Assembly: GCA_902787185.1 (NCBI GenBank)
Contig: CADAFP010000044.1
Location: forward strand, 1-41,321
Direction of reading: 5' to 3'
Source: an uncultured Bacteroidales bacterium
Lineage (GTDB): Bacteria; Bacteroidota; Bacteroidia; Bacteroidales; Muribaculaceae
DNA: 41,321 bases
Part shown: one piece after another, positions 7,807-29,953 of the stretch
Numbering within the stretch: the first letter of the stretch is position 1
Layout: every line of letters begins with the position of its first letter
Program-made: the position numbers and the translations under genes
The notes under the pieces: generated by a model
Database searches by the model: none
Told to the model about the DNA's origin: nothing
What the model saw: only the letters and a program-made list of their open reading frames with translations

Positions 7807-8103
7807 CTACTTGGTGATGTTGAAGCCCTCCTTGACGATGAATTTTAAGGCACTCAAGGCGGTGTCGCGGTCATACTGCTTTTCTTGCTCAGTCAAGTCC
7901 TCATAGGGGATGAGGCTGGGATGCGTCTTGAGGTCGTCGTTGCGTTTCTCGCCGTAGGTCCATCCCTGACTCATGCGCGACTGTGCCCAAACCTCATGGA
8001 TATTGTGGGCCAGGTGCTCGGTGAGCGCTTCCAGCTCCTCGGGCAACTTGACGTCGCTCAAGTCAATGGGGTGGGGGTTGTATCCTTGTTTTTTCATACC
8101 CAT
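7807..8103 (-). CDS. Small RyR-domain protein
   Basis: This 98-residue protein consists almost entirely of one RyR domain, the module repeated in animal ryanodine receptors and also found singly in bacteria. The diagnostic pattern is present: LAHNIHEVWAQSRMSQGW, then TYGEKRNDD, HPSLIPYEDL and EKQYDRDTALSALKFI. There is no signal peptide or membrane segment, so it should be cytosolic. Its ATG overlaps the stop of the TIR gene by one base (TAATG on the minus strand), so the two are probably translationally coupled and expressed together. It is the last gene of the seven-gene unit. The ligand of bacterial RyR domains is unknown to me; because TIR enzymes make ADP-ribose derivatives, a nucleotide-sensor role is an attractive but untested idea. 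Confidence 0.85.
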   Translation of the reverse strand: MGMKKQGYNPHPIDLSDVKLPEELEALTEHLAHNIHEVWAQSRMSQGWTYGEKRNDDLKTHPSLIPYEDLTEQEKQYDRDTALSALKFIVKEGFNITK

Positions 8104-9260
8104 TATCTCTTACTCATTACGTCATTCTCGCCACAAGGCATGTGAATAGAGTCTTCTTCCAACGCGAAGGGTGCCTTGACCAGATAGGCGCGGCTTTGCT
8201 CCTCCAGGGGGATGAAGAGCGACACGATACCATTGGCGTCTGATTTGGCTTGATGGCCGGCAACCTCGACCGGCGTGTTGGGGATGTAGGACTCGCTCCA
8301 GGGATTCCACAGGCAGAACCTCACCGCACCATAGACCGAGGGGTCACGGCTGATGTCAAGCGTCACGTCACGGCTGAGCGTGATGGTCGTGTCGATGGGT
8401 AAAAAGTCTTGACAGGTCAGGGTGATGTGTGCCTGCTGGTTGAGGTAGCGGTGTGGGATGTTGGCAAACAAGGCATGGCTGTCCATCGTGGTGATGGTGT
8501 CAGTCTTGGTCTCGTTGTCGAGCGTGATGGAAACAATGGCATCCTTCAGTGGTGGCAACTGTTGGTTGCTGGTCGAGACCTCGTTCAAGCCCACCTTGGC
8601 GTCAAAGGGTTGGTTTGCGAGCCATACGCCGACTATTGCTCCCACCACGAGGATGGCTCCCAGAGTCCAGGCAATGGCGCGGCGGATGAGCAATCGCTTG
8701 TGGCGTTTCCAGATGGTGTCAAACTCGACGCCCAGCAGCTTGGACACGAGTTGGACGTAGGCACGGTCCTTGTTGAGCCAAGGCCATCGGTAAATCTTCT
8801 CATTGACGTTAGCTCCCAGAATTTCGGGCAGGTCAAGTTTCTTGATTACCGGGTTGAAGCACTCGGTGTCGGGATTGCCGCTGTTAGGGGAGCCGTCAAC
8901 GATGAAGAAATGGATGTTTTCGGTGCGGCCCAAGCTATGGAAATACTCGATTTCCTTGCCCACCCACTCAGACTGTGCCGAGTTGGGCGAACAGATGACA
9001 ATCAGGTTCCTGGAGGCGCGCAAGCGTTCCTGCAATTCCTCGGTGAGTCCTCCCGGCTGAATGTCGGTCGGCGCAAAGAAGACCGGATTGATGGGCTTGC
9101 GTTTCCAGCCTTTCTCGGAGCACATCGTGGCGGGCATGCGGTAGTGCTCAAGTTTGCGCTGCACCCGTTTCCCCCACTCGGTGTCTTTCTTGTTATAACT
9201 GATGAAGGCATAGTACTTGTACTCTTGCTCCATCGTCATGTTTTGTTTGGTCTCTTCCAT
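8103..9260 (-). CDS. Membrane-anchored TIR-domain protein
   Basis: This protein has 385 residues. Residues 14-125 form a TIR domain: YYAFISYNKKD (strand A), FFAPTDIQPGG (BB-loop region), NLIVICSPNSAQS and W99xxxE103, where Glu103 sits at the position of the NAD-cleaving glutamate of enzymatic TIRs. After a basic stretch (KRHKRLLIRR) comes one membrane helix at about 195-215, so the TIR faces the cytosol and the last 170 residues face the periplasm. That outer part looks like two small beta-sandwiches; the second (about 305-370, KSDANGIVSLFIP) resembles carboxypeptidase-regulatory or PEGA-type domains. The architecture suggests a receptor that passes an envelope signal to a cytosolic NADase. 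It lies 38 bases after the 13-TPR gene and overlaps the RyR gene. Met8 or Met10 are alternative starts. Confidence 0.88.
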   Translation of the reverse strand: MEETKQNMTMEQEYKYYAFISYNKKDTEWGKRVQRKLEHYRMPATMCSEKGWKRKPINPVFFAPTDIQPGGLTEELQERLRASRNLIVICSPNSAQSEWVGKEIEYFHSLGRTENIHFFIVDGSPNSGNPDTECFNPVIKKLDLPEILGANVNEKIYRWPWLNKDRAYVQLVSKLLGVEFDTIWKRHKRLLIRRAIAWTLGAILVVGAIVGVWLANQPFDAKVGLNEVSTSNQQLPPLKDAIVSITLDNETKTDTITTMDSHALFANIPHRYLNQQAHITLTCQDFLPIDTTITLSRDVTLDISRDPSVYGAVRFCLWNPWSESYIPNTPVEVAGHQAKSDANGIVSLFIPLEEQSRAYLVKAPFALEEDSIHMPCGENDVMSKR

Positions 9261-9298
9261 TATTGATATAGATATGATGTTGTTGAGTTGTTCTTGTA

Positions 9299-12022
9299 TC
9301 AGGATTTTTTCATCATTTGCCGAGCGGCATCGATGTTCTTTTTAACGGTTTGGACGTTGGGATGGTCCTCGCCGAGTGACTTCTGCCAGATTTCAAGAGC
9401 CTTGAGGTAATAAACTAAGGCCTCCTGATAGTTCTTGAGGTGATAGTGAATTGAGCCGATGTTGTTATAGGAGAGGGCTGTGCTTGGATGCTCAAATCCC
9501 AGCGTCTGCTCTTGGATATTCAGTGCCTTGAGGTGGTATTCCAGTGCCTTGGTGTAGTCGCCTTGCTCCTCCAGTGTGGTGCCGATGTTGTTGTAGGCGA
9601 TGGCGATGTCGGGGTGATTCACACCCAATGCTTTCTCCTGTATCTCCACGGCCTTGAGGTAATACTGCAGTGCCAGTTTGTGCTTCTTGAGGTTGCTGTA
9701 GGCCGTACCAATGTTGTTATAGGTTGAAGCCAGGTCGGGATGGTCGGCTCCCAGCCCACTTTCCTCGATGGCAATAGCCTTAAGATAGTATTCGAGTGCT
9801 TTTTTGTTGTCGCCCTGATTCTTGTAGATTGAGCCAATATTGTTTAGGAAAGTGGCGGTTTGGGGGTGCATTGTGCCCAAGGCCCTCTCTTGGATTTCCA
9901 ATCCCTTGAGGTAGAACTCGAGTGCTTTGTTGAGCGCCCCCATGTTGTAATGTATCAGTCCGATGTTGTTGTAGAGGATGGCGATGTCGGGGTGCTCGTT
10001 GCTCAGGTTCTGCTCCTGAATGTGCAGTGCCCTGACTGCAAAGTCGAGAGCCTTGTCATAGTCGCCGGCACTGCGGTAAACATTGCTGATGTTGCTCAGC
10101 GTGAGTGCAATGTCGGGGTGTTGCGATCCCAACACCTGCTCGCGGATGGCCAGAGCCCTGCCATAAAAGTCAAGTGCACCGTTGTAGTCGCCTTGTCTGA
10201 AGTGAATCATGCCGATATTGTTGCAGGCGGCTGCCGCCTGGAGGCTTTCTTGTCCGAGCCTCATGTTCCAGATATCGAGAGCCTGCATGTAAGCGTCCTT
10301 GGCCTTCTTGTATTCACCCTGCCTATCGTATATCATGCCGATGCTGTAGTGACAAAGCGCGACATTGCTGTTGTCGTTGCCGAAGATCTTTTGCCATATA
10401 CCCATGGCCTTGAGGTAGTATTGCATGGCCATGGCATTGTCGTCGAGTTGGGCATAGTCGGCGCCGATGTTATAGTGTATGTTAGCGATGTCGGGGTAAT
10501 CCTTGCCGAGTACTTTTTCCCAAACATGCAGCGCTTTAAAGTGATACTCGAGCGCCTTGGTGTAGTTGCCGTGAGACGCGTAGAGGGTGCCGATGTTGCG
10601 GTAGGACGTGGCTGTCTCGGGGTGCATTTTCCCGAGTCGCTTCTCGTTGATGTCGAGAGCCTTGAGATAATACCCCAGTGCTGTGCTGTAATCTTCCATG
10701 CTAGAATAGATGGCGCCGATGTTGTTGTAGGACGAAGCCGTTTCGGGGTGGTCCATGCCATAGGCTTTCTCATAGATGCCGAGAGCCTTGAAATGATAGT
10801 CGAGGGCGATGCTGTCTTTGCCGAGTGAGCCATAGACTGAACCGATGTTGTTGAGTGAGGTGGCCGTCTTGGGGTGCTGGCTGCCGAGTGTGCGCTCATA
10901 GATTTCCAAGGCTTTGTGATGGTATTCCAGAGCCTTCTCAAAGTCACCCTGGTGGTTGTAAACCGAACCGATGTTATTGTACTGAGTGGCCAGGAGTTCC
11001 TCGGCGTCCTCTGGGTAATCTTTGGCGAGAGCCAGTACGCGATATAGGTACTTGAGGGCTAATGAGTAATCGGCGACGTATCGCTCGATGAACTGTCCGG
11101 CGTCGTTCTGCCAGGTGATGTTGGTGGTGTCGAGCTCTGCCCGGATCTGGATATAGTGGGTGGCCTTCTCGTTGTTGAACTGGGCCAGGGCGATGGTGTA
11201 GAGTTGGTAGAGGTATTCGGCATCCTTTTGCTGTTTCTTAATTACCGCTGCCATCTCGGCATTGGCTTGGTTGATGACGGCTTGTGCGTCGCTGATGGAC
11301 TGCTCGATGCGTGCCAGTGCTTCCTTGTTGCGCCGGATGACATCAACGGGGTCAAACATCGTGAGGATGAGTGAGTCGGCCTTCTCGAGCTCGCCGTTCT
11401 CGATGAGGATGTTGACCTCGGCTTCCTTGGCACTCAGGGCATCATAGTCGGTGTGGGCATAGTGCTCAGCCATGCTCTCGATGAGCGACTGGTATTTCTC
11501 AAATTTCTCTTGGAGCTGCTGGATTTCAATCCTGTACTGCTCGCTGGTAATCCTGTTGTCATTGAGTTGCTTCTCTAACTGAATGACCTTGGCTTGGTAG
11601 TTTTCCTCGGCCACTCGGTAAGCGTTATTCTCGATGCGGAGTTTCTCGGCTTGAAGTTCCTCGGTCGAGATCATCACAATAGTGAGGGGAACAGAGTTGG
11701 AGAAGGCATACTTGCGTCCGATGAGCCCTTTGTCGTTGAGTTCAAACCCCTTCTTGCTCACCTGCTGAAGCGTGAACGGCTCTCCTGGCTTCTTGCCAGG
11801 CAAGGCAAGAGAGAATGTTCCGTCGTTTTGGCTGAGGACGGCGTTGTGTCCACCACTTGCCCTGACGGTGACACCGCTCAAGGCTTCCCCTTTTTTCCAC
11901 GGCTTGCCCACGGTCTTGACATAGCCATATTGAGTTTGCGCCATGGAAAATAACGAGACGACACAGCACAAAGCCATCAACAGGAGCGGCTTTTTGAGTA
12001 TTGTTGTTGTGGTGTCAAGCAT
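9299..12022 (-). CDS. Exported TPR protein with 13 kinesin-light-chain-type repeats
   Basis: This is a protein of 907 residues. Order of parts: signal peptide (about 1-28, ending near SMAQ), a small beta-sandwich of carboxypeptidase-regulatory type (about 30-110, SGVTVRASGG...DGTFSLALPG), a long coiled coil (about 120-190), the motif MAEHYAHTDYDAL, a helical linker, then thirteen TPRs of exactly 42 residues at 346-891. The repeat core is NNIGxxYxxxGDYxKALEYxxKALxIxExxLGxxHPxxA. Such TPR arrays are protein-binding scaffolds; the signal peptide puts it in the periplasm or on the cell surface. It shares its whole N-terminal half with the genes at 12062 and 15508, so the three are paralogues. Spacing to its neighbours is 39 and 38 bases, which fits one operon. 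The partner protein is unknown. Confidence 0.88.
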   Translation of the reverse strand: MLDTTTTILKKPLLLMALCCVVSLFSMAQTQYGYVKTVGKPWKKGEALSGVTVRASGGHNAVLSQNDGTFSLALPGKKPGEPFTLQQVSKKGFELNDKGLIGRKYAFSNSVPLTIVMISTEELQAEKLRIENNAYRVAEENYQAKVIQLEKQLNDNRITSEQYRIEIQQLQEKFEKYQSLIESMAEHYAHTDYDALSAKEAEVNILIENGELEKADSLILTMFDPVDVIRRNKEALARIEQSISDAQAVINQANAEMAAVIKKQQKDAEYLYQLYTIALAQFNNEKATHYIQIRAELDTTNITWQNDAGQFIERYVADYSLALKYLYRVLALAKDYPEDAEELLATQYNNIGSVYNHQGDFEKALEYHHKALEIYERTLGSQHPKTATSLNNIGSVYGSLGKDSIALDYHFKALGIYEKAYGMDHPETASSYNNIGAIYSSMEDYSTALGYYLKALDINEKRLGKMHPETATSYRNIGTLYASHGNYTKALEYHFKALHVWEKVLGKDYPDIANIHYNIGADYAQLDDNAMAMQYYLKAMGIWQKIFGNDNSNVALCHYSIGMIYDRQGEYKKAKDAYMQALDIWNMRLGQESLQAAAACNNIGMIHFRQGDYNGALDFYGRALAIREQVLGSQHPDIALTLSNISNVYRSAGDYDKALDFAVRALHIQEQNLSNEHPDIAILYNNIGLIHYNMGALNKALEFYLKGLEIQERALGTMHPQTATFLNNIGSIYKNQGDNKKALEYYLKAIAIEESGLGADHPDLASTYNNIGTAYSNLKKHKLALQYYLKAVEIQEKALGVNHPDIAIAYNNIGTTLEEQGDYTKALEYHLKALNIQEQTLGFEHPSTALSYNNIGSIHYHLKNYQEALVYYLKALEIWQKSLGEDHPNVQTVKKNIDAARQMMKKS
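9350..10987 (-). repeat. 126-bp tandem repeat array (13 units) encoding the TPRs
   Basis: The thirteen 42-codon TPR units lie head to tail without insertions, giving a 126-base period over about 1.64 kb. Sister units share recognisable DNA segments (codons for NNIG and KALEYxxKAL), so copy number could change by recombination and short-read assemblies could collapse units. Confidence 0.8.
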
Positions 12023-12061
12023 GACGGGCTATGTTTAACGTGTTGAAAGAATGTTGTCAGC

Positions 12062-13039
12062 TCACTGGGTGAGGGCTTGTAGCTTGCGCCTTGTCAGTTT
12101 TGCCTGTTCGCTGTCCTCGCCATCGATGATAGTAAGGATTTCGAGGGATTTCTCCAGGCACTCGATGGCGTTACCTGTGTCGCCTTGAACCAAGAATTCG
12201 TCAGCAAGGTTATTGCTCAGAGTCACTACACGTCGGGCATAGTCAAGGTCGCGCAAGATGGCGGCTTTGTCGGCTAGGGCTTTGTCAATGACACTTTGTG
12301 CAAAAACCTTTCTTTGCTCAATTTCCTGCTTTGCGGCGCGGTTTCGCTCCAGCACGGTTTCGGGGTCAAACACGGTGTGAATGAGTGAATCGGCTCTCTC
12401 GAGTTGCCCATCCTCGATGCACATGTTGATGTGGTAGTCGATGGAGTCGAGCTTGTCATAGTCGGTGCGTGCATAACGGTCGGCCATCTCGCTGATGAGA
12501 GCCTGGTAAGACTCATATTTCCTCTCCAAGTCGTCCAACTCCTGGCGGTATTGCTCGATGGTGATTTCCTGTTTGTCGATCTGCTGTTGCAGCTGGTTGA
12601 GTCTTTTCTTGTAGTTGAGTTCGGCGGTCTTGTAAGCGTTTTTCTCTATCCGTTCCTTGTCGGCCTCGAGCTGCCTGATGTTGACCATGACAATCTCTAT
12701 GGGCACCTGGGTGGAGAAAGCCTGCTGGCGGCCGATGAGCCCCTTGTCCTTGAGCTCATAGCCCGCCTTGGAAACACTCTGGAGCACAATGGGGTCGCCA
12801 TTGCGCTTGCCTGGCATAGGGGTAGAGAAACGGCCGTCTTGTGCACTGCGTGTGGCGTTGACGGTGCCGCGCCACCTGATGACGGCATCAGGAACCGGCA
12901 CTCCAGGTTTGCCAGGACGACCGATTGTCCTGACATAACCCACCTGTGATTGCGGCTGGCCTTGCGCGAGGACGGTATCGGCTATCGACAGCAGAGCCAC
13001 GCATATCCATATTCTGATGGTCGTTAATCGTAAAGCCAT
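12062..13039 (-). CDS. Exported coiled-coil protein, paralogue of the TPR proteins lacking the TPR array
   Basis: This 325-residue protein has a signal peptide (about 1-25), followed by a beta-sandwich (about 30-115, GYVRTIGRPGKPG...DGRFSTPMPG), the segment YELKDKGLIGRQQAFS and a long coiled coil (about 120-200) with the motif MADRYARTDYDKLDSIDY. All of this aligns by eye with residues 1-260 of the 13-TPR protein next to it. Where that protein begins its repeats, this one has only one TPR-like unit (FLVQGDTGNAIECLEKSLEIL) and stops. It could be a natural short form that pairs with the long paralogues through the coiled coil, or a copy that lost its array. No enzymatic motif is seen. It lies between the caspase-like and 13-TPR genes, with 73 and 39 bases of spacing. 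Confidence 0.8.
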   Translation of the reverse strand: MALRLTTIRIWICVALLSIADTVLAQGQPQSQVGYVRTIGRPGKPGVPVPDAVIRWRGTVNATRSAQDGRFSTPMPGKRNGDPIVLQSVSKAGYELKDKGLIGRQQAFSTQVPIEIVMVNIRQLEADKERIEKNAYKTAELNYKKRLNQLQQQIDKQEITIEQYRQELDDLERKYESYQALISEMADRYARTDYDKLDSIDYHINMCIEDGQLERADSLIHTVFDPETVLERNRAAKQEIEQRKVFAQSVIDKALADKAAILRDLDYARRVVTLSNNLADEFLVQGDTGNAIECLEKSLEILTIIDGEDSEQAKLTRRKLQALTQ

Positions 13040-13112
13040 GGTTGAGCGTTGATGAAAAAGAGGAGGATCGCCGGCATCAAGCCATTTGTCAACCCTCCCC
13101 GATGGTGTTAGG

Positions 13113-14618
13113 TTAGAAACTCAAACTCTTCCACGAGTCGTTGGTATAGGTGGTGGACGATTTGGGCGTCTGCTTCTTGCGCAGTTCCAATGTGGGAGCC
13201 ACATTGCTCACGTGCTTCTTGACGTCGTCGGTGAGTTTGCCGTAGGACACCAGTCCTTGGGTTTCCTGAAGCTCCTTGAGCAGGTAGTAGGTGAACAGTC
13301 CATGTCCCTCTTCCTGGTAGCTCTGGGCCGTCTCGTTACCGTGGGCAGCCGAGAACACGATCACGTTGCCGATGGTGGGGCGGGCATCCTCGGCCTCGAC
13401 CTCGACGGCACGTTCCACATTCAGTCCCTCGTTGTCGCGGTTGACGCCGCTGAAGCAGGCGTCGATGAACACCGTCACGCGTTCAAAGCCCAGATGTCCC
13501 AATTGGGTATAGAATTCGTCCAGGGCGATACCGTGGCGGGGCTTGGTGCCGTAAACGTCGGTGGGCAGCAGGTAGGACTTGTTGTGGTCTTGGATGTCGG
13601 GGACACCGTGTCCTGCGTAATAGACGATGAGTTTCTTGGCCGCCTTGTCCTTGATCTCGTCCTTGAGCCAGTCGTTGATTTCCTGCTCGAGAATCATGTG
13701 CTTGGTCGCATCCTGGCACAAGTGGATGTTGGTCGCGGGAATTCCCAAGGTGTTCTTGCAGTATTCCGAGAAAATCGAGGCATCATTCTTGGCAAAGGGG
13801 ACATTGGACACAAAACGGTAGTTCTGGTTGCCGATAATCAGCGCATAGGTGTCGTTGCGCATGACCTGTGAACCGGGAATGTCGGTGTCCACGTCCGACA
13901 GTCGTGACTCGCTCTCCTGGGGGTCGGATTTCTTGATGCAGATGGCCACGGCCTCTTTGGCAAGACCGTATTCCAGGCAGTTGTCGGTGTTGATGGTTGC
14001 CGGCAATCCTAAAATCTCACCGTTGAAGGGCTTGTGGCGTGTTTGTCCGTCCTCAACCACCTCGGTGGCAAATGCTGCCTTGCCGATGAGCGCATTGTTG
14101 CCAATCTCGATGAGCGTCAGGTTGGTGCATGACAGGAACGCCTGGTCCTCGACGCGGCACAGTCCCGGAATCCTGACGGAGCGCAACGATGCACAGTTGG
14201 CAAAGGCGATGGTCTCAATCTTTTTGACATTGACAGGAATGGAGAAGTTGAACAGGTTCTTGCAGTTCAAGAAGGCACCCCATCCGATTTCCCAAAGGAA
14301 CACATCCTGGAACTCGACGGAATTCAGGTCCTTGCAGTTGGCAAATGCGCACGACCCGATGCGTCCGATGCCCGACCCGATGACGACCTTGCGGATGGCA
14401 AGGCGCTGCTTGATCCAGGGCGCCAAGTCCTTGTTCAGGTCATAATTGGGCATGGCCGCTCCCTTACCCATCGTAGTACACTTGATATAAAGGGTGCGTC
14501 CGTCAAACTCCCATTCGACATCATTGCTGCATTTGCCTGATTTGGCTTTGGTGCTTTGGGCATCGGCCAAGCCAACGCAAAGCACCAAAGCTGTCAGGAG
14601 TAGGAATAATCTTCTCAT
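13113..14618 (-). CDS. Exported caspase-like (C14) peptidase with leucine-rich repeats
   Basis: This is a protein of 501 residues. A signal peptide (about 1-20, ending VGLADAQ) is followed by BspA-type leucine-rich repeats at about 75-200 (FANCKDLNSVEFQD, FANCASLRSVRIPG, FLSCTNLTLIEIGN). A caspase-fold peptidase domain spans about 260-475. The catalytic dyad is complete: His337 in YYAGHGV and Cys388 in FIDACFSG, with the expected spacing; YALIIGNQNYR marks the first strand. Caspase-like enzymes cleave after a specific acidic or basic residue and often act in cell-death or defence pathways. The unusual feature is the signal peptide, which would place it outside the cytosol, where the LRRs may recognise a target. 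It follows the barrel gene by 12 bases. Confidence 0.88.
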   Translation of the reverse strand: MRRLFLLLTALVLCVGLADAQSTKAKSGKCSNDVEWEFDGRTLYIKCTTMGKGAAMPNYDLNKDLAPWIKQRLAIRKVVIGSGIGRIGSCAFANCKDLNSVEFQDVFLWEIGWGAFLNCKNLFNFSIPVNVKKIETIAFANCASLRSVRIPGLCRVEDQAFLSCTNLTLIEIGNNALIGKAAFATEVVEDGQTRHKPFNGEILGLPATINTDNCLEYGLAKEAVAICIKKSDPQESESRLSDVDTDIPGSQVMRNDTYALIIGNQNYRFVSNVPFAKNDASIFSEYCKNTLGIPATNIHLCQDATKHMILEQEINDWLKDEIKDKAAKKLIVYYAGHGVPDIQDHNKSYLLPTDVYGTKPRHGIALDEFYTQLGHLGFERVTVFIDACFSGVNRDNEGLNVERAVEVEAEDARPTIGNVIVFSAAHGNETAQSYQEEGHGLFTYYLLKELQETQGLVSYGKLTDDVKKHVSNVAPTLELRKKQTPKSSTTYTNDSWKSLSF

Positions 14619-14630
14619 GGGAGGGGAGGA

Positions 14631-15446
14631 TTAGAAGCGGAACTGGATGTAGATGCGCGTGGTCTTCTCCTTGAATTTCATCTTCTGGCCACCAAAATCA
14701 CTCTTGGCGTGCTTGACACTGATGTTGTTGTCGTTGCGAGCCTCGAAACCGATACCGATGGCGTTGAAAGTCAGGTTGCCGCCAAATGCGGTATACAGGC
14801 CGTGTCCCCAGGCGAACTGGTTCTTATTGCTCGAGTCCTTGATCAGGAAACCGGCAGCCTTGTAACCCACGTGGAAGTAACCCTGCAGACGGATGTTGTC
14901 GGCAGCGTTCTTGTGCATCGGGGTGAAGGGGTATAAGGTGAGTGACGGACCCACAGACATACCGTAGTCAATTGTCATCTTCTTGTTGTGCCAGGGCATG
15001 GGACTTGTCACGTAGCCATCACCAGAAAGGTACTCCATGGGCTTCACGCTTGCCTTGTACTGGTTGAAGTTCATGTCCATCCAGGTGTAGTCAAGACCGA
15101 TGAACACGACGTTACCTAACGCCTTCTTATGGAAATTAAAGGTCTGTCCCCACTGGAGGCCAACGCCCCAGTCGCACTTGAACTCGTTGTGGAAACCGTG
15201 CCCGTCAAGGCTGATGGTGGGGAATTCGTCGGACGAGAGCTTGGTCTTGTTGTAGCTGATGTTGAAGAACGTGTTCTTGCTCCATACATTCCTCAAATGT
15301 TGGTCATACTTGACATCGGTCTTGGACTTGGATTCCTGTGCGATGATGTCGTTGAGGGTTGTCACTCGGGTGGTGTCACCGCTCTCCATAGCGTTGCCGG
15401 TGAGTACACAGGCAAAGGTAAACAAAGAGAATAATAATTTTTTCAT
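14631..15446 (-). CDS. Probable outer-membrane beta-barrel protein of the TIR/caspase locus
   Basis: This exported protein has 271 residues: a signal peptide (about 1-19, ending TGNA), a linker of about 35 polar residues, then alternating amphipathic beta strands (VGLQWGQTFNFHK, NVVFIGLDYTWMDMNF, MSVGPSLTLYPF, GYFHVGYKAAGFLI) and a terminal strand ending RIYIQFRF. The C-terminal phenylalanine is the usual recognition signal for outer-membrane barrel assembly. No named family is recognised. Its place between a TPR gene (61 bases upstream) and the caspase-like gene (12 bases downstream) suggests it is the outer-membrane part of the same machinery, perhaps as an anchor or pore; this is inferred from gene order only. 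Confidence 0.75.
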   Translation of the reverse strand: MKKLLFSLFTFACVLTGNAMESGDTTRVTTLNDIIAQESKSKTDVKYDQHLRNVWSKNTFFNISYNKTKLSSDEFPTISLDGHGFHNEFKCDWGVGLQWGQTFNFHKKALGNVVFIGLDYTWMDMNFNQYKASVKPMEYLSGDGYVTSPMPWHNKKMTIDYGMSVGPSLTLYPFTPMHKNAADNIRLQGYFHVGYKAAGFLIKDSSNKNQFAWGHGLYTAFGGNLTFNAIGIGFEARNDNNISVKHAKSDFGGQKMKFKEKTTRIYIQFRF

Positions 15447-15507
15447 GATGAATTGTTTTGTTTGTTTGATTATTTGATTGTTATTTAATAATTAGCGGTT
15501 GAAAGTG

Positions 15508-17781
15508 TCACTCAGCCAGCAGGTGACGGATGCGTTCCACGTCGGCCTGACGTTCCTTGGGGATGATGCCCAAGGTCGAGAAGACCTCCAAGTCGTCGAG
15601 GAACATATCGTGCAACTGTGACTTGTAGCGGCGATAAATCTCTTCGGCTCGAGCCGTCTCACCCAGGAACAGGTAGGCGGCAGCAAGGTTGGCATGGATG
15701 AAGAGCCTGCTGTCGTCAACGGCCAGTCCCTTGTTAGCCAGGTCGATGGCTTTGTTGAAGTCCTTCTTCAGCAAAGCGTGGTTAGACAAGTTGCCGTAGC
15801 TGCGGGCCACATCATCGTTGTAGAGCGAGGGCTCTCGCTGGGCAAGGGCCAGGTTGATTTCCAGCTCTTCCTGGTACATCTTTTCGCCTTCAGGAAGTCG
15901 GTTCAGGTTGTCGTAGGTGGTTGCCAGGTTGCGCAGCACCTTAGCGACTTCAGGCTGGAAGGTGGCGGGGTCGGTCTTCACCAGGTCCCGATAAATCGAC
16001 AGAGATTCCTTGAACAGCGGTTCGCTTTGCTCAAGGCGTTCATCCTTGTAGAGCCTGATGGCGTGCTCATAGAGGTGCTGTGCCAGCATGGGTTTGTAGT
16101 CGGATGCATTGTCCTGGGCAATCCTGCGGAACACGTCGAGCGCCTCGTTGCAGGCTTTTTCGCCCTCGTCATCACGGCCCTCGCTGTAGTACTGCACCGA
16201 CAGGTTGTTGAGTGCCGCTGCCATCATCGGCCCGTAGAGTTGCGGGTCTTCCTGGTCGAGCTGGCGGTAAATATCCAATGCTTGCAGCAGCGGTTGCTCG
16301 CCGTCGCGCCCGTTGCGGTAATAGAGTGCCGACAGGTTGTTGAGCGTTGCCGCAACGTTGGGGTTGTAGATTTTGGGGCTGGACTGGGCGAGCTTGCTGT
16401 AGATGCCCAGCGCCTGCTGGTAACACTGCTCACTCTTGTCGAACTGCCGCTCTTGGTCGTAGAGCTGTGCCATGTTGTTCTGCACGTCGGCGACACGGGG
16501 TATATAGGCCCGGGCATCTTCCTGTGCAAACTGCCAGTAGATGTTGAGGGCTTGCTCGAAGAGCGGCTCGCACTGTGCCAGACGGTCGCTGCGGTCGGGG
16601 TAGTTCATCGCAAAGTTGTTGAGCACCTCGGCCAGGTAGGTCTGATAAATCTGCGGGTTATCTTCGGCCAGTTTTTCATAGATGCCTGCGGCCTCCTGGA
16701 AATATCCCATGGCGCGGGAATCTTGAGGCTGATGGCCTGTCAGCAGCGTTGCGGCATGCTCAAGCGCCCAAGCGAGTCCGGGTTGGTATTCCTCGGGGTT
16801 CTCGTTGGCCAGTTGACGCATGCGTTGCAGCACCTGCTGCAAGCGGGCGTCGGCTTTTTGTGACAGTCCACGCTTGAGGCAGTAATTGATGGCATCCAGT
16901 TGCCAGTGGAAGTTCTGCGGGTCGATGCTTGCTCGCTTCTCGATATAGTGCAATGCCGAGTCGGGTTGCATATCGAGGACAAACATCTTGTAGTAGTTGT
17001 AGCAGTCTTGAGCGAGGTCGTTTTTCTTGGCGCTGGTGCCGGCACGGCTGGCCTCAAGGTTCTGCTGGCGGCGTGCCAACTCGGCTGCCTCGGCTGCTTG
17101 TTCGGCCTCTTCGCGCTGCACCTCGGCAAGGCGGGAATCCACCGACCCCTTGCTGCGAAGCAGCGAAAACGCCTGTGTGAGGTCACCATCAAGGATGAGG
17201 TCCTCGATTTGCTGGTCAAACTCATTCAGCTGGTCATAGTCAATCTGTGCATAGCGCTCGGCCATCTCGCTGATGAGTTCACCGTTGCGCCTCCTTTCCT
17301 CATCCACGGCCTGCATCGCCTCGCGGTATTGCTGCTGGGTAATCTCGAAACGGTCCATGAGCGCCTCGATGCTGTCTTCCATGGCGTCTATCTTGCGCTG
17401 CATCGTTCGGCGTATTTTGCGTTCGGCGCTCTTCACGTCATCGTTCTTCTGCTCTGGGGTTTCCATGACGATGACCAACGGATTGCTGGAGTAATTGTAG
17501 GATTTCAACAGGATATCGTTGTCGATGAGGACATAACCCTGTTTCTTCACCGATTGCAGATAGTACTTCTTGGAGGGGATAGCAATGGAAAATTTGCCGC
17601 CTGTCGAGCTGACGACGGTGTTACAGCCTTTCACTTGGATTGAAGCGCCAGCCAACGGTGTGCCGGCAACTGCCCGGGTGTTGGTTCGCCTTCCTTTGGT
17701 TTTCACGTATCCTTGCTGCGTCTGCCCAACTACTGTGAGCGCGGCGAAGATGCAAATCAGCGTTAATATGAGATTTTTCAT
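15508..17781 (-). CDS. Exported TPR protein, first gene of the TIR/caspase locus
   Basis: This protein has 757 residues. The frame is open further upstream to 17862, but ATG at 17781 starts a good signal peptide (MKNLILTLICIFAALTVVG) and lies about 43 bases behind a strong promoter. Next come a small beta-sandwich (about 20-105, AGASIQVKGCN...GGKFSIAIPS), a coiled coil (about 115-185) and the motif ISEMAERYAQIDYDQLNEFD, which is shared with the two paralogues at 9299 and 12062. A glutamate/alanine-rich helix (about 220-250) leads into eight to ten divergent TPRs (about 300-735, units such as VAATLNNLSALYYRNGRDGE). It differs from the 13-TPR paralogue in that its repeats are irregular and longer. 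It is probably a periplasmic scaffold; the ligand is unknown. Confidence 0.85.
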   Translation of the reverse strand: MKNLILTLICIFAALTVVGQTQQGYVKTKGRRTNTRAVAGTPLAGASIQVKGCNTVVSSTGGKFSIAIPSKKYYLQSVKKQGYVLIDNDILLKSYNYSSNPLVIVMETPEQKNDDVKSAERKIRRTMQRKIDAMEDSIEALMDRFEITQQQYREAMQAVDEERRRNGELISEMAERYAQIDYDQLNEFDQQIEDLILDGDLTQAFSLLRSKGSVDSRLAEVQREEAEQAAEAAELARRQQNLEASRAGTSAKKNDLAQDCYNYYKMFVLDMQPDSALHYIEKRASIDPQNFHWQLDAINYCLKRGLSQKADARLQQVLQRMRQLANENPEEYQPGLAWALEHAATLLTGHQPQDSRAMGYFQEAAGIYEKLAEDNPQIYQTYLAEVLNNFAMNYPDRSDRLAQCEPLFEQALNIYWQFAQEDARAYIPRVADVQNNMAQLYDQERQFDKSEQCYQQALGIYSKLAQSSPKIYNPNVAATLNNLSALYYRNGRDGEQPLLQALDIYRQLDQEDPQLYGPMMAAALNNLSVQYYSEGRDDEGEKACNEALDVFRRIAQDNASDYKPMLAQHLYEHAIRLYKDERLEQSEPLFKESLSIYRDLVKTDPATFQPEVAKVLRNLATTYDNLNRLPEGEKMYQEELEINLALAQREPSLYNDDVARSYGNLSNHALLKKDFNKAIDLANKGLAVDDSRLFIHANLAAAYLFLGETARAEEIYRRYKSQLHDMFLDDLEVFSTLGIIPKERQADVERIRHLLAE

Positions 17782-17830
17782 ATCTTGCTTATCCTTCAAT
17801 GAGTTAGAATGACATTCTAATACGATTTTG

Positions 17831-17863
17831 CAAATATAGTTAAAATAATTTGAATAATGCAAA
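17831..17863 (-). promoter_or_regulatory. Promoter of the seven-gene TPR-caspase-TIR-RyR unit
   Basis: On the minus strand TTTG (17860-17863), 21 bases and TATATTTG (17831-17838) match the Bacteroidota consensus. Predicted start near 17824 leaves a leader of about 43 bases. No comparable promoter is seen in the later gaps of this unit, which supports one transcript of about 10 kb. Confidence 0.65.
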
Positions 17864-17960: not shown

Positions 17961-18734
17961 TTATTTGGGAGGAATGCGCTTGATTGGGAAATTGAAATAG
18001 GTGTCGGGGAAGGACTCGTTGTCGAGGCGGAAGTGCCACCACTCGTTGTCCAGTGGCAGGAAACCGTGTCTCATCATCGCTGTGCGCAGCACCATGCGGT
18101 TGTAGAACTGCTCTGAGGTGATGTGGGTGCCGTCGTCGGTATATTCCATCGTCTCGGGGTTGCCTCCATAGTCAGGGTGGCTCTCTGGTCCAAACCAGTC
18201 AAAGGTGCCTCCCATATCCAGTTCCTTGCCTGTGGTCATGTCGAGCAGCGTCAGGTCAACCGTGGAACCGCGGGAGTGACCGCTGCGGCGTGCCACATAC
18301 TCCTTCTCAAACACCGTCGGCTTATCCAAATATGGGTAGAAATATGCCTTCGTCAACGTGTCGGTGGGATCCAATGCCCAGCGCATGAAGTGGTCAACGG
18401 CCATTTGAGGGCGGTAGGCATCGTAGATCTTGAGGCGGTAGCCGTGGCGTTTCAGGTCATCGCTCACGGCGCGCAGGCTGTCGGCGGCCTGGCGGGTCAT
18501 CAGCGCCAGAGGCTCCAGGTAACCGTCGATGCGTGCTCCCACAAAGTTGTAAGTGCTGTAGTAGCGTATCTCAAGGATGGCATCTGGAATGACATCGGTC
18601 AGGGTGACAAACTGGCTCGAATCGAGCGTCTTGTCGGTGACAACCTGTTGGTTGGACTTGCATGAGGCAGCAAGTGTCATCAACCCGATAAGGGCCACCA
18701 TGATGTGGAAATGAAGGAGTCTTTTTGTTCTCAT
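17961..18734 (-). CDS. D-Ala-D-Ala dipeptidase lipoprotein (VanX/DdpX family)
   Basis: This protein of 257 residues is a zinc-dependent dipeptidase of family M15D, which hydrolyses D-alanyl-D-alanine. The zinc and catalytic residues of the family are visible: His153 and Asp160 in GHSRGSTVDLTLLD, then Glu231 and His234 in NEWWHF. The segment IYDAYRPQMAVDHF is also typical. A lipoprotein signal (LMTLAASC, Cys25) anchors it in the envelope, unlike the cytosolic vancomycin-resistance VanX, so it probably recycles cell-wall dipeptide rather than giving resistance; no vanH or vanA partner is present. It sits between the TIR/caspase unit and the divergent RyR membrane-protein gene. CAAAATTA at 18763-18770 (TAATTTTG on the minus strand) may be its -7 element, but spacing to a TTG is poor. 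Confidence 0.9.
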   Translation of the reverse strand: MRTKRLLHFHIMVALIGLMTLAASCKSNQQVVTDKTLDSSQFVTLTDVIPDAILEIRYYSTYNFVGARIDGYLEPLALMTRQAADSLRAVSDDLKRHGYRLKIYDAYRPQMAVDHFMRWALDPTDTLTKAYFYPYLDKPTVFEKEYVARRSGHSRGSTVDLTLLDMTTGKELDMGGTFDWFGPESHPDYGGNPETMEYTDDGTHITSEQFYNRMVLRTAMMRHGFLPLDNEWWHFRLDNESFPDTYFNFPIKRIPPK

Positions 18735-18780: not shown

Positions 18781-18812
18781 TTTGCTTTTGTGCTCAACTT
18801 GCACTAATTTTG
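18781..18812 (+). promoter_or_regulatory. Promoter of the membrane RyR/Rossmann gene
   Basis: TTTG at 18781-18784, 20 bases, TAATTTTG at 18805-18812 is a full consensus match. Transcription should start near 18819, about 21 bases before the ATG at 18840. Confidence 0.65.
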
Positions 18813-18839: not shown

Positions 18840-21281
18840 ATGAATTGGTTTCAGCAGTTATGGAATAGTCTGATTGACGGGCTTCCCATCATCGAGAAAC
18901 ATGTGGATGTCACTGGCAATCTGCCGGCGATGGCAATCATGAGCCTCTTGGCCGGACTGGGGGTGGCACTCGTGATATTGGTGGTGCTGGCTTTACTTAA
19001 CAGCTTCCGTCATGGGAAATGGAGCATTTCGGGAAAGTGGCTCACGACGCTGTTCTGCGTGACGTGGCTGTTCGGCTTTATCCTGTATGACATCGGTATC
19101 TACACGGGTGAGCCGAGGTCATTCCTGTTGAATGCACCGATGGCCATGATTCATGCCTTCGACATGTTTTTCCTGCAGAGTGATGCTGCTGCGCTTCACC
19201 ATGAGTTCCACGAGAACGTTGTTTTCATGGGGTTTTTCTCGATGGCCCATTTGCTTGCGGCATTTGTGAGCATGGTGTTTGTCATCAAGCACTTTGGCTT
19301 CAACATCATCGCTGGTTTCAGGATGCTCCTTGCTGCCTATTGCTTTTGCAAGAAGAAACGCAAGGATACCTACGTCTTTTGGGGAATGAATGAGCCATCC
19401 TATCTGCTTGCCAAGAGCATCAAGCAATATTATGAGGATAACAGCAGGAAAAAGGATTACCGCATCATCGTTGTCAGGACAGGCAGCGACGGGGACAGGA
19501 CAAGCGTCAGGAATGGCATGGAACGCATGTTTAACTTCTTGTCACTCAAGAATAAGGACCTTGAACGCTTGCAGGACTTGGGTTGCTTGACGACCAATAC
19601 CTTTGTCGATGTGTCTAAACTGAATATCGTTGGCAAGACCGGCGATGACGTTGAGGTGTTGAAAAAGCAGCTCAACCTGCGGCAACTGTCCCGGATATTG
19701 TCGCATAAAACTACCTCGGCGATTCACCTGTTTTTCCTGGGCGATGACGCCTCGGCCAATATCCAGTCGATTACCAACCTCAAGAAAGACAGTGTCTTGC
19801 TGCGCTTTGCCGGTAACGAGAAACACCATGACGAGCGCAAGATTACCTTCTACTGCCACGCCCGATATAACAGCGTTCACCGCGTCATCGAGGATGAGCA
19901 GTTGCAAGACAACATCGAGGTCAAGGTGGTTGACTCGTCCCACATCAGCATTGAGCAGTTGAAGCAGGATGTGAGCCTGCACCCGGTGAGCTATGTAGAT
20001 ATCGAGAACGACGCAACGGTGTCCTCGCCGTTCAACGCGCTTGTGGTGGGATTTGGCGAGGTCGGGATTGACGCCGTGCGTTTCCTGTATGAGTTCGGCA
20101 CCTTTGTTAAGCATGGCACGGCTCAGGATGGCAAGGTCGAACGTTCAGACTTCCATTGCGATGTCGTCGATTCCAAAATGCCGGTAGTGGCAGGCCCCGT
20201 CCTGTCGGCTGTCCCGGCAATTATCTCAGAGCTGACGCTGAAAGACGGCACCAAGGTGGTGCTGAACTCGGGTGACGGAAATGGAAAAGAGCGAGTTGAT
20301 CAAGCCCCCACCGTTGCCCCCCTGATGTCGCTGCATGAGCTGGATATGCTCGGGGTGGACTTCTACAAGAAACTCGACACTTGGGTCAAGACGCTCAACT
20401 ACGTTGTTATCGCCACCGATGACGACGAGCAAAACATGGCGCTGGCGGTGCGCATCTTCAAACTCGCCATCAGGTATCGCCCCGACTTGGAGCACTTCCG
20501 CGTCTTGGTCTGCGTGAAAAGCGATAACGACGGACACATCCGTCGCACCGCCGAACACTACAACCGCCTGTGGGTCGCTGAGAAACACAGTACTGCCGAC
20601 GAGCGACAACTGCACCAGAAGAAGGTGAAAAACGAGGCACAGTACAAAGCGCCAATCACCGTGTTTGGCATGAGCGACATGATTTATACCTATGATTACA
20701 TCATCAGTGACAGGCTTGTCGAAGAGGCCAAGTCGTTCAAGGAACGCTATGATGCCTCGATTGCCGCATTGAGGCAGCAGTCGGGCGAGAGCACTCAAGT
20801 GTCGCAGAACTGGGATGCCGAGTACAAAGACCTCATGCAACTGGTGGGAGAATACAAGGATTATTCGCCCACCTACACCGGAATGATGAGGCTCCGCCGC
20901 ATCCAGAGTCAAAACCGTCAAAACTGTTTCCACCTGCGCACCAAGCAAGAGTTGGCGCGGCGGGCCCTCGGTGAGGAAGTGTATGCCAAGCTCTCCAAGA
21001 ACATCTTGTTCAGGAAGAACAATGAGATTGAATATAAATGGAAAGAAGGCAAACCGATTGACAAGGTGGTGACAGTGCTCGACGTGCTGGCAATGACCGA
21101 ACACCTCAGGTGGTGTGCATCGCATGAGATCCTCGGCTATCGCGACCAAGGAGATGAAGAATTCAAGGACGAAGCCAGATTGCAGCATGGATGCCTCAAG
21201 CCATGGGATGAACTCTCTGACGAGAAAAAGAGCTACGACTACAACATCGTGGACGTCTCGCTGGGCATTATCAGTGAGTGA
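18840..21281 (+). CDS. Membrane protein with TrkA-N-like Rossmann domains and C-terminal RyR domain
   Basis: This is a protein of 813 residues. Hydrophobic segments at about 31-55, 67-88, 126-149 and possibly 97-113 and 155-170 form an N-terminal membrane part. A first Rossmann-like region starts near 177 (DTYVFWGMNEPSYLLAKSI). A second, with the nucleotide-binding turn GFGEVG at 404-409 followed by strand ends such as CDVVDS and YVVIATDDDEQN, resembles the TrkA-N/RCK domains that gate potassium channels on binding NAD(H) or other nucleotides. Residues 740-813 are a RyR domain (LAMTEHLRWCASHEILGY, HGCLKPWDEL, KKSYDYNIVDVSL). Together this suggests a nucleotide-gated membrane protein, perhaps a channel, though no K+ selectivity-filter motif is visible. 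It is transcribed divergently from the vanX-like gene near the TIR unit. Confidence 0.78.
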   Translation: MNWFQQLWNSLIDGLPIIEKHVDVTGNLPAMAIMSLLAGLGVALVILVVLALLNSFRHGKWSISGKWLTTLFCVTWLFGFILYDIGIYTGEPRSFLLNAPMAMIHAFDMFFLQSDAAALHHEFHENVVFMGFFSMAHLLAAFVSMVFVIKHFGFNIIAGFRMLLAAYCFCKKKRKDTYVFWGMNEPSYLLAKSIKQYYEDNSRKKDYRIIVVRTGSDGDRTSVRNGMERMFNFLSLKNKDLERLQDLGCLTTNTFVDVSKLNIVGKTGDDVEVLKKQLNLRQLSRILSHKTTSAIHLFFLGDDASANIQSITNLKKDSVLLRFAGNEKHHDERKITFYCHARYNSVHRVIEDEQLQDNIEVKVVDSSHISIEQLKQDVSLHPVSYVDIENDATVSSPFNALVVGFGEVGIDAVRFLYEFGTFVKHGTAQDGKVERSDFHCDVVDSKMPVVAGPVLSAVPAIISELTLKDGTKVVLNSGDGNGKERVDQAPTVAPLMSLHELDMLGVDFYKKLDTWVKTLNYVVIATDDDEQNMALAVRIFKLAIRYRPDLEHFRVLVCVKSDNDGHIRRTAEHYNRLWVAEKHSTADERQLHQKKVKNEAQYKAPITVFGMSDMIYTYDYIISDRLVEEAKSFKERYDASIAALRQQSGESTQVSQNWDAEYKDLMQLVGEYKDYSPTYTGMMRLRRIQSQNRQNCFHLRTKQELARRALGEEVYAKLSKNILFRKNNEIEYKWKEGKPIDKVVTVLDVLAMTEHLRWCASHEILGYRDQGDEEFKDEARLQHGCLKPWDELSDEKKSYDYNIVDVSLGIISE

Positions 21282-21387: not shown

Positions 21388-21679
21388 GGGGCTGACTGGC
21401 TTTGACAGCGTGTAGAGGTGGTAAGCAAGCATGCAGAGCGATAATGGCAATGCTCTTAAATCACAGTCATTGACTACTTTAAATGGCGAAAACAACTACG
21501 CTCTCGCTGCCTAACCGAAGAACAGTAAGTTCGGCTTTATCGCTGCCCAAGGGGCAGTGACGAGACATCACCCAACTTCGTTTCGGGCCTGCCAGCGGTC
21601 GAAAACCAAGCCGAGACTAAGCATGTAGAAACCTTATTAGTTCCACGTTTGGACGAGGGTTCAAACCCCTCCAGCTCCA
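21388..21679 (+). ncRNA. ssrA: Transfer-messenger RNA (tmRNA)
   Basis: This RNA rescues ribosomes stalled on broken messages, acting first as an alanyl-tRNA mimic and then as a template for a degradation tag. The 5' end GGGGCUGACUGGCUUUGACAG is the near-universal tmRNA start. It pairs with CAGCUCC at 21672-21678: seven pairs, one of them G-U. A T-arm-like GGTTCAAACCCC lies just before. The tag reading frame at 21485-21514 encodes GENNYALAA followed by TAA, as in other Bacteroidales. The 3' CCA is not encoded (the genome reads CAA after the discriminator A), so it must be added afterwards. A 13-bp terminator hairpin follows. SmpB and other partners are not in this window. Confidence 0.96.
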
Positions 21680-21686
21680 CAAGGCG

Positions 21687-26369: not shown

Positions 26370-26406
26370 AGTTGATTATTTAGTTAAATATTTAATAGTC
26401 AATCTT

Positions 26407-26441
26407 CCTAAAACCTAAAGCCTAAAGCCTAAAACCTTAAG
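26407..26441. repeat. Five degenerate CCTAAAR heptads, partly inside a gene
   Basis: CCTAAAA, CCTAAAG, CCTAAAG, CCTAAAA, CCTTAAG run in tandem from 26407 to 26441. The array covers the last eight codons and the stop of the GH144-like gene and the first bases of the gap behind it. Confidence 0.75.
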
Positions 26442-27782
26442 TCCCTGCTGCACCTCGGGACAACTCATAAACAGTTTCCAGAGCAATCCAGTGCGGTAGT
26501 TCTCAATCATCGGGGCAATCGTGCACTGGTCGATGGCCAGATAGCGCGGCAGGGTCCATCCGCTGACGGGGCTGAAGGCATCATAGAAGCCATATTTGCC
26601 CCAAATCGACTCGCCACGGCCGTAGAAGCCCTTGAGCGCCGCCATCGACTGCTCGGGGGTGTAAGGGAAAGAGGACAGTGCCGCAGTGGGCGTGATGACA
26701 CCCAAGTCGTTCCCGGGACAATGGGCCGAGTATCCCTCGACAGAGTAGCTGGCAGTCAAACCCCAGCAGTCGGGGCCATAGCCTGTATATTTCTTGGGAT
26801 TATCCACACAATACTGGTAATTGCTCAAGGCATGGTTGCGCACCACGTTCCAGTAGTCGGCATACTGGTCTTTCAGCCCCTTGGGGTTCAGGCCAATCCA
26901 GCTATAGTGAGCCCAAAACAGAGGACCGCCCGTCTGTTCGGCGCCGTTGTGCTTCAGTTCCAACGGGTAGCCATAGGGGGCTGCATTGCTCTTGATGCCG
27001 CCGCTGCGGGCCCAGCCCTTGTGATAGCACGAGGCGGGAACGCTGTGGGTGGGAGAGGCCGCTGCCAGCACATAGACGATGAGGCACTCGTTATAGCCCT
27101 CAAGGGGGAAGTTCATTTCCCACTCATACTCGGGTGACCAGTGCCAGTAGATGACATCCTGCCCGCCACGGGTGTACCAGTCAAACTCCATCGCTTGCCA
27201 CAGGCCGTTGATGCGTTCAATCAGGGCTTTCTCGGCAGCATTGTCGGGCGAGAGGTACTGGCGGGCACACAACAGACCCTGCATCAGGAAGCAACTCTCT
27301 ACAAGGTCACCACCGTTGTCCTTTTGGCCAAAAGGCTTCACTTTGCCCGAGGGGCCGTTGATCCAATGAGGCCACACCCCGTGGAAACGGTCGGCCCGTT
27401 CCAGGAAGTCCACGATGCGTGTCAAGCGCTCAACGCCCTGGTCACGGGTGATGAAACCGCGTTCCATCGCCACCACAAGGCCCGCGATGCCAAAACCGCT
27501 GCCTCCTGTGGTCACCACATCCTGGTCATGCTCGGGATACTCCCCGTCGAGGTGGATGCGTTCGCGGGCCAGGCCCGACGTGGGTTCGGCCCCGTCCCAC
27601 ATGTAGTTGAAGTGGACGCGCTCGATGTAATCCAGCATGGCATCATCATTGGCGAACGATGCGGGCCGCACAAGGGTGTCTTGTGGCGTCGGCTCCTTGG
27701 GACTTGTGTTATTATCGCTCTTGCAGCCTGTGAAGACCAACAGGAGAATAAAAGTAAAAAGTGTAAAATAAACCTTGTTCAT
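26415..27782 (-). CDS. Glycoamylase-like lipoprotein (GH144-type, putative endo-beta-1,2-glucanase)
   Basis: This protein has 455 residues. The frame is open back to 27845, but ATG at 27782 starts a lipoprotein signal (LLLVFTGC, Cys20), and the upstream extension would overlap the GH43-like gene. The mature part has the glycoamylase-like (alpha/alpha)6 toroid: FNYMWDGAEPTSGLARER at the start, VTTGGSGFGIAGLVVAMERG, VWPHWINGPSGK and SFPYTPEQSMAALKGFYGRG. This pattern is that of Pfam's glycoamylase family, which includes GH144 endo-beta-1,2-glucanases. It lies 10 bases after the GH43-like gene and 45 before the GH3 gene, so it probably cuts a polymer at the cell surface for GH3 to finish. The linkage specificity is inference; other glycoamylase-family activities remain possible. 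Confidence 0.8.
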   Translation of the reverse strand: MNKVYFTLFTFILLLVFTGCKSDNNTSPKEPTPQDTLVRPASFANDDAMLDYIERVHFNYMWDGAEPTSGLARERIHLDGEYPEHDQDVVTTGGSGFGIAGLVVAMERGFITRDQGVERLTRIVDFLERADRFHGVWPHWINGPSGKVKPFGQKDNGGDLVESCFLMQGLLCARQYLSPDNAAEKALIERINGLWQAMEFDWYTRGGQDVIYWHWSPEYEWEMNFPLEGYNECLIVYVLAAASPTHSVPASCYHKGWARSGGIKSNAAPYGYPLELKHNGAEQTGGPLFWAHYSWIGLNPKGLKDQYADYWNVVRNHALSNYQYCVDNPKKYTGYGPDCWGLTASYSVEGYSAHCPGNDLGVITPTAALSSFPYTPEQSMAALKGFYGRGESIWGKYGFYDAFSPVSGWTLPRYLAIDQCTIAPMIENYRTGLLWKLFMSCPEVQQGLKVLGFRL

Positions 27783-27792
27783 GTCAGTTTGA

Positions 27793-29895: not shown

Positions 29896-29916
29896 CGTAT
29901 GATGTCTTAATTAAAA

Positions 29917-29953
29917 CAGGCAGGGTGAGCCAGTGGGCTTGTCACCCTGCCTG
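29917..29953 (-). terminator. Hairpin between susD and the downstream enzymes (attenuator-like)
   Basis: On the minus strand CAGGCAGGGTGA (29942-29953) and TCACCCTGCCTG (29917-29928) pair perfectly over 12 bases around a 13-base loop, followed by TTTTAATTAA. It looks like a partial terminator that would lower expression of the enzyme genes relative to susCD. Confidence 0.7.

Follow-up and report, generated by a model that had tools for sequence, protein, structure and literature searches.

We analysed a 41,321-base stretch of DNA, the entire contig CADAFP010000044.1 (hereafter the window) of a 3.2 Mb genome of an uncultured Bacteroidales bacterium (102 contigs, 81% complete), which carries seven minus-strand genes (TPR758, a small outer-membrane barrel candidate, an LRR-caspase, CC325, TPR907, a TIR protein and RyR98) and, divergently, a gene for a membrane protein, RyR813. 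Our reading is that the locus belongs to a conserved, modular signalling system of gut Bacteroidales that joins TIR proteins to ryanodine receptor (RyR) domain proteins, has an arm in the envelope and most likely serves immunity or cell death, a reading for and against which we find the case evenly balanced. Its gene content, layout and linkage, and the conservation of its catalytic and ligand residues, were established directly. The gene cluster occurs in rumen and gut bacteria, and its core is TPR758, the barrel, the LRR-caspase and the TIR protein, usually with RyR98. An earlier note on this DNA, which treated the seven genes as one unit, had seen RyR98 but overlooked the second RyR gene, that of RyR813.

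Conservation was evaluated in 101 genomes of the genus (with cut-offs of 1e-60 for the caspase, 1e-40 for the TIR protein, 1e-20 for RyR813 and the curated score for the RyR family, PF02026). The LRR-caspase is found in 13 of these genomes, the TIR protein in 22, RyR813 in 25 and a PF02026 domain over the cut-off in 25; among the 48 genomes that are at least 90% complete, the TIR protein occurs in 13 and the caspase in 7. Every caspase genome has the TIR protein, and 12 have RyR813, the thirteenth (G026; genomes are denoted by G and loci by L) having RyR98. The 22 TIR genomes and 25 RyR813 genomes have 18 in common (p = 6.7e-11), and 20 are common to the 25 with an RyR domain and the 25 with RyR813 (p = 3.1e-12), both values being only indicative because the species are related. 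G005, with a fragment that contains a stop, is included in the RyR set, from which G028 is omitted (its sole match being its RyR813), and G102 enters the TIR set through a partial match within a longer protein. Many of the genomes are incomplete and several locus stretches stop at contig ends; greedy gene calling missed some open reading frames (TIR in L085, RyR813 in L087 and L160, among others), which were placed by the searches instead.

The earlier note had staked its unit on the genes being found together in related genomes, and for the core this was borne out: TPR758, barrel and caspase are contiguous in all 13 caspase-bearing genomes, and in 12 of them TIR belongs to that run and shares its strand (the exception being G111, where it is on another contig). 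In seven loci (L020, L021, L022, L024, L027, L086 and L087) TIR directly follows the caspase, RyR98 follows TIR, as it does in the window, and CC325 and TPR907 are both absent, as they are from the closest relative. Elsewhere TIR stands after CC325 (L088), after TPR genes (G093 and G025) or first (L089), and CC325 is present in L025, L029 and L088. Because they are missing from several core operons, CC325 and TPR907 are inserts and not part of the core, which rules out the seven genes as one fixed system, and RyR98 is itself an optional member of the operon. In L021, L022, L024 and L086, RyR813 lies directly ahead of TPR758 and shares its strand; in the window and L020 it is divergent, with a VanX-like gene between. 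It shares a same-strand run with the core in the first four of these loci and in L089 (in the order TIR, TPR758, barrel, caspase, a 539-residue protein, RyR813 and RyR98), L150 and L152. The last two, labelled Prevotella and Prevotellaceae, come from a scan of named genomes (best 80 of 445 relatives) and have TPR758, barrel, caspase, TIR and RyR813 in a row, the barrel being uncalled in L152.

Nineteen of the 26 genus RyR813 loci contain a TIR gene no more than 8 kb away, compared with a chance expectation of about 2.3% per locus computed from the window genome's own four TIR genes. Another RyR gene is that close in 17 of the 26. In one locus (L092) TIR follows RyR813 with 17 bases between. 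Among 69 control caspase loci without RyR813 (L116-L187 minus the RyR813-bearing L150, L152 and L160, and with L108-L115 excluded because they belong to the system) none has a TIR gene nearby. RyR813 neighbours supplied part of the training set of the TIR profile. A fairer baseline is the TIR density of the source genome itself, although this is a single genome. The partner TIR proteins have varied architectures (Sel1, FGE, SIR2, double TIR and WD40; the TIR of L103 is below the Pfam cut-off), and thus the link of RyR813 looks to be to TIR activity.

RyR domains are rare in the class (4 of 296 genomes at E = 1e-8), and a PF02026 scan of the source genome returned two genes, RyR98 and RyR813, both at this locus. 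RyR98 is matched by PF02026 at 123.5 bits (cut-off 27.4) and matches PDB 3NRT, a putative ryanodine receptor presumably from B. thetaiotaomicron, at E = 8.6e-33. The spacing of its H36, W39, H61 and D78 (3, 25, 42) is identical to that of H75, W78, H100 and D117 of the phage protein RyDEP, and all 16 aligned sequences keep H36, W39 and D78, while 15 of them keep H61. According to the excerpts of PMC13232231 on which we draw, the R12/PF02026 domain of RyDEP binds and cleaves 2'/3' cyclic ADP-ribose (2'/3'cADPR) through these residues (H75 and D117 being catalytic, W78 and H100 ligand-binding), six of eight homologues tested bound the signals and cleavage was found in none, and phages counter TIR signals with RyR-domain proteins, some of which act as sponges. 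The earlier note had proposed that the TIR protein makes or degrades an NAD-derived nucleotide to which an RyR protein responds, an idea that, by analogy with RyDEP and as far as those excerpts reach, gains support, although what we consider the likelier effector, RyR813, was not among its candidates. In a phage collection, 202 of 50,697 records matched RyR98 at E = 1e-3, and the two closest matches have by eye the appearance of bacterial DNA. Two records deposited as UNVERIFIED 'Bacteriophage sp.' (L287, MT836850.1, and L288, MT837259.1) read by eye as Bacteroides-type chromosomal DNA, and the RyR98-like gene of L287 overlaps by 4 bases a gene of a family that combines transmembrane (TM) segments with an RCK-like region.

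By hydropathy, RyR813 has hydrophobic segments starting near residues 35, 69, 131 and 152, and another near 449 inside the region that looks Rossmann-like by eye. Its H755, W758, H783 and D800 are kept in all of 8 aligned sequences, and in a set of 22 (relatives whose alignment covers 75% or more of the query, as for the TIR and caspase counts below) H755 and W758 are invariant, with H783 and D800 each in 21; their spacing is that of RyDEP except for a loop longer by 3 residues. In another order, L216 carries a TIR-WD40 gene followed by a TM-TrkA_N-RyR protein in which both domains are over the cut-off (TrkA_N 6.3e-11, 43.1 bits; RyR 3.8e-11), and which resembles RyR813 in BLAST over the RyR domain only. 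A relative of RyR813 in L203 reaches 21.3 bits, under the TrkA_N/RCK cut-off of 23.8. Solo RyR genes overlap a gene of the TM-RCK-like family in L287 and overlap or adjoin one in L215 (where the family member matches Slo-like_RCK at 4.6e-4, below cut-off), and in L198 such a gene precedes RyR813 and RyR98. In L216, L287, L215 and L198, RyR domains thus keep company with TIR proteins and RCK-type membrane proteins. No match to RyR813 was returned by a plasmid search.

L203 (2082-11629) has TPR907- and TPR758-like genes, an M48 peptidase, an RyR813-like gene and RyR98, with no TIR match in 20 kb. At L098 (7208-8143), beside RyR813, lies a gene whose product joins an RyR domain to a C39-peptidase-like domain (by Pfam); the gene ahead of it resembles a sigma factor by eye, and L099, L200 and L202 have similar layouts; RyR-controlled transcription is perhaps what such sister loci encode. 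A fusion of a calcineurin-like phosphoesterase and a PQQ beta-propeller, with a signal-like N-terminus, comes after RyR98 (in L092 after TIR) in about ten loci (L021, 6520-8346; L022, L023, L024, L086, L087, L090, L092, L097 and L102); it is possibly an accessory enzyme, or the position may merely be a common chromosomal site.

E103 of the TIR protein, which we take to be the catalytic glutamate, lies within WVG(K/R/Q)E in all 21 aligned rows, and the caspase dyad, H337 and C388, is kept in 13 of 13, so that both active sites on which the earlier note relied are invariant in the aligned sets. The TIR protein has one internal hydrophobic segment (hydropathy, cut-off 1.5), which starts at residue 196 behind basic residues; because the basic side faces the TIR domain, the tail is predicted to be periplasmic, which agrees with the earlier description of an anchored TIR protein with a periplasmic tail. 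At the same cut-off the caspase, TPR758, TPR907 and CC325 each have one N-terminal hydrophobic segment, in accord with the earlier claim of an exported caspase and three exported scaffolds, again as a prediction. For the barrel candidate, in which no hydrophobic segment reaches this cut-off, the signal peptide and the assignment as a barrel are readings by eye.

In 51 of the 57 loci L108-L164 (labelled Prevotella/Prevotellaceae, Bacteroidaceae, Muribaculaceae and others), among the best 80 of 445 relatives, the barrel gene immediately precedes the caspase gene. In loci without a part in the TIR system, the pair is often preceded by genes for proteins of about 175 and 295 residues (five such loci read), which in L142 match LPP20 at 0.042 (below cut-off) and DUF4384 at 3.5e-6 (just over). 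This arrangement of about 175 residues, about 295 residues (the DUF4384 protein in L142), barrel and LRR-caspase, seen in TIR-free loci among L116-L164, is a widespread module in gut Bacteroidales, and in L148 a CHASE2 protein lies upstream of it. In a midpoint-rooted tree of 59 caspases (loci without a full-length caspase call are excluded), the 15 linked to TIR and TPR758 form one clade with a support of 0.943 and no others inside, which fits one uptake of the barrel-caspase pair into the TIR system. The caspase was rejected as an effector responding to a cytosolic nucleotide, since its N-terminal signal-like segment and BspA-type LRRs give it the look of an exported protein. These features bear directly on a circuit like that of Thoeris type IV, in which the TIR product would activate the caspase: TIR and caspase do share one operon with invariant active sites, but a cytosolic nucleotide should not reach this caspase and related caspases are found in loci without a TIR match, making such a circuit highly improbable here.

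In place of a caspase effector, the TIR-RyR reading leads to the following working model, in which we infer localisation, every biochemical step, gating, the direction of signalling and the purpose, phage defence included. The exported TPR758, the variable TPR907 and CC325, the barrel and the LRR-caspase would detect or process something in the outer membrane or periplasm, and this envelope event would reach the periplasmic tail of the TIR protein. The cytosolic TIR domain, of a type able to produce cyclic ADP-ribose alarm molecules, would then convert NAD+ to an ADP-ribose-type signal, probably a cyclic isomer, and the cytosolic RyR domain of RyR813 would bind it and alter an activity at the inner membrane (ion flux or polarisation) through the TM-Rossmann/RCK-like body. 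RyR98 would bind or clear the signal, setting a threshold or ending the response, while the exported proteins may be either the trigger or an execution arm outside. A bolder version, which we regard as doubtful, is a bacterial RyR-like circuit, in which a TIR-made cADPR isomer gates an RCK-type inner-membrane channel bearing an RyR domain, triggered from the outer envelope by an exported caspase/barrel/TPR relay; it would be the prokaryotic equivalent, and perhaps the origin, of the animal cADPR-RyR axis.

The same proteins might be combined otherwise, with the TIR protein a plain NAD+-depleting suicide effector, the RyR proteins only buffering its ADP-ribose products or protecting the cell from them, and RyR813 no receptor at all. 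Bacterial TIRs can deplete NAD+, which speaks for this arrangement. So does the description of SpbK as an NADase (in the part of PMC12847820 consulted), as does the retention in RyR98 of the residues seen in the phage RyR proteins, among which there are sponges (PMC13232231, in excerpt); however, a membrane protein of about 800 residues would be an odd buffer, and RyR813 is present where the neighbourhood is without RyR98 (L092, L150 and L152), and on balance we consider this arrangement improbable.

Several observations weigh against a TIR-RyR system of immunity or cell death. The C-terminal RyR domain of the window's RyR813 is below the Pfam cut-off (E = 6.4e-5 and 23.6 bits against 27.4; 26.3 bits in the genome scan), L089 has N in place of D800 and L107 has Q in place of H783, and no TrkA_N or RCK match to this protein was found in Pfam, the RCK reading being drawn from its relatives. 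The same ligand residues occur in animal ryanodine receptors, according to the excerpts of PMC13232231, and because of this, and because phage homologues that bound did not cleave, these residues cannot separate binding from hydrolysis. Seven of the 26 genus loci have no TIR within 8 kb of RyR813 (the window, where the distance is 9.6 kb, and L097, L100, L102, L106, L204 and L205), L107, one of the other 19, has a weak TIR match 7.7 kb away, and of seven order-level loci outside the genus two have a TIR gene near and five none (another RyR gene is present in five of the seven, in the stretches first fetched, and in G488 a wider stretch adds RyR98 beside two TIR genes); some RyR813 proteins may therefore answer other enzymes. 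RyR98 was not found in the L088, L150 and L152 neighbourhoods, and there is no PF02026 match anywhere in G073, the genome that carries L088. The barrel-caspase pair is commoner in TIR-free contexts (again among the best 80 of 445 relatives), being so widespread there that it may have its own job. PADLOC returned nothing for the locus beyond partial TIR, TPR and caspase matches, and third-codon-position GC content (GC3) and base composition gave no sign of mobility or recent import.

The serious rival is that the same TIR-to-RyR chemistry serves envelope-stress or housekeeping signalling, tuning ion flux or gene expression upon envelope damage. Most of the parts look envelope-facing, other RyR813 loci have a gene that resembles a sigma factor by eye and a second RyR protein (the C39-peptidase-like fusion in L098), the barrel-caspase pair also occurs without TIR, and the base composition shows no sign of recent import, all of which fit this rival. 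Yet presence is patchy within the genus (TIR in 22 of 101 genomes, the caspase in 13), gene orders are shuffled and TIR architectures interchangeable, as in conflict systems, and phages deploy RyR-domain proteins against TIR signals (PMC13232231, in excerpt), so that we think the envelope-stress explanation unlikely while giving it real weight. Patchy presence, modularity and phages carrying RyR-domain proteins make immunity our first guess, and for the TIR-RyR system as a whole the evidence suggests an alarm or defence system of a new kind that spans the envelope.

The features of the locus are collected in the table below. All seven minus-strand genes of the earlier note are present, with its gaps of 61, 12, 73, 39 and 38 bases and a final overlap of 1 base (reading TAATG); the ATG start of TPR758 lies within a longer open reading frame that begins with TTG. 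The promoter ahead of the operon (TTTG-N21-TATATTTG) is an exact match to TTTG-N19..22-TANNTTTG, which we take to be the Bacteroidales consensus. This pattern has 5 matches in the window against 0.33 expected (5 were reached in none of 100 shuffles), and none of the 5 falls within the operon. A scan of the window for sigma-70 promoters and terminators gave no gain over shuffles (sigma-70: 8 found, 8.4 expected), and no operon protein was over the cut-off in NCBIfam. Directly downstream of RyR813 is a transfer-messenger RNA (tmRNA) gene (21388-21680); tmRNA genes are frequent integration sites. Further along, at 24099-34555, is a run of polysaccharide-utilisation type (GH3, glucoamylase-like, GH43, SusD and a TonB-dependent receptor).

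Table 1. Features of the TIR-RyR locus, in window coordinates
Feature	Position	Strand	Matches, residues and proposed role
RyR98	7807..8103	-	Pfam RyR 4.1e-36; H36, W39, H61, D78; solo RyR (R12) domain; candidate cADPR-isomer binder/eraser
TIR protein	8103..9260	-	TIR_2 3e-11, ThsB_TIR 3.6e-8; E103; candidate ADP-ribose signal synthase
TPR907	9299..12022	-	Pfam TPR_12 1.2e-142; predicted exported; variable insert
CC325 (coiled coil)	12062..13039	-	Pfam matches below cut-off only; predicted exported; variable insert
LRR-caspase (C14)	13113..14618	-	Peptidase_C14 1.1e-19, LRR_5 1.2e-20; H337, C388; predicted exported
Small outer-membrane barrel candidate	14631..15446	-	No Pfam match; signal peptide and terminal Phe by eye; usual caspase partner
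TPR758	15508..17781	-	TPR_12 1.8e-22; first gene of the operon; predicted exported
Operon promoter, Bacteroidales-type	17831..17863	-	Exact match to the assumed consensus
VanX-like dipeptidase gene	17961-18734		Between the TPR758 operon and RyR813
RyR813 promoter, Bacteroidales-type	18781..18812	+	Exact match to the assumed consensus
RyR813 (813 residues)	18840..21281	+	N-terminal TM segments, Rossmann/RCK-like region (by eye), C-terminal RyR domain; candidate receptor/effector

If the TIR-RyR reading is correct, RyR-domain membrane proteins would be a host receptor class for TIR-derived signals, and TIR signalling would be tied to the bacterial envelope. Bacterial RyR-domain proteins, PDB 3NRT among them, would also gain a function, it would be easier to explain why phages have RyR-domain sponges and glycosidases, and small bacterial proteins would offer a way to test the long-standing question of whether, and by what means, cADPR acts on ryanodine-receptor domains.

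A literature search that covered few subscription papers found no description of a TIR-RyR-caspase operon, with PMC13232231 the sole directly relevant paper; the passages of PMC9092222, PMC7159879 and PMC8195603 that came up have no RyR-domain protein in their text, ryanodine appearing in the references of PMC8195603. Set beside phage RyDEP, RyR98 and RyR813 keep the H, W, H and D of the 2'/3'cADPR site, but they are encoded by the host beside a TIR gene, whereas RyDEP is a phage counter-defence protein, and RyR813 is a membrane protein (PMC13232231, in excerpt). PDB 3NRT belongs to the same solo RyR family as RyR98. Among RCK-type ligand-gated membrane proteins (TrkA_N, Slo and CASTOR), the likeness lies in the TM-TrkA_N-RyR protein of L216 and in the RyR genes adjoining the TM-RCK-like family in L215 and L287; the window's RyR813, in contrast, is without a TrkA_N match, and the L215 family reaches Slo-like RCK only below the cut-off. 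Thoeris effectors include SIR2-SLOG and macro-TM proteins and, in type IV, a cytosolic caspase-like effector. In the window operon no SLOG, macro or SIR2 effector domain was found by Pfam or PADLOC, the TIR protein is membrane-anchored with a predicted periplasmic tail, the candidate receptor is an RyR domain, and the caspase, unlike that of type IV, has an N-terminal hydrophobic segment and BspA-type LRRs (its localisation being predicted). We know of no Thoeris counterpart of the exported caspase, barrel and TPR proteins. The earlier note's comparison with Thoeris fails in the caspase, which looks exported, and holds in the TIR gene standing beside a candidate signal-binding effector, with a ThsB_TIR (PF08937) match and the TIR glutamate present.

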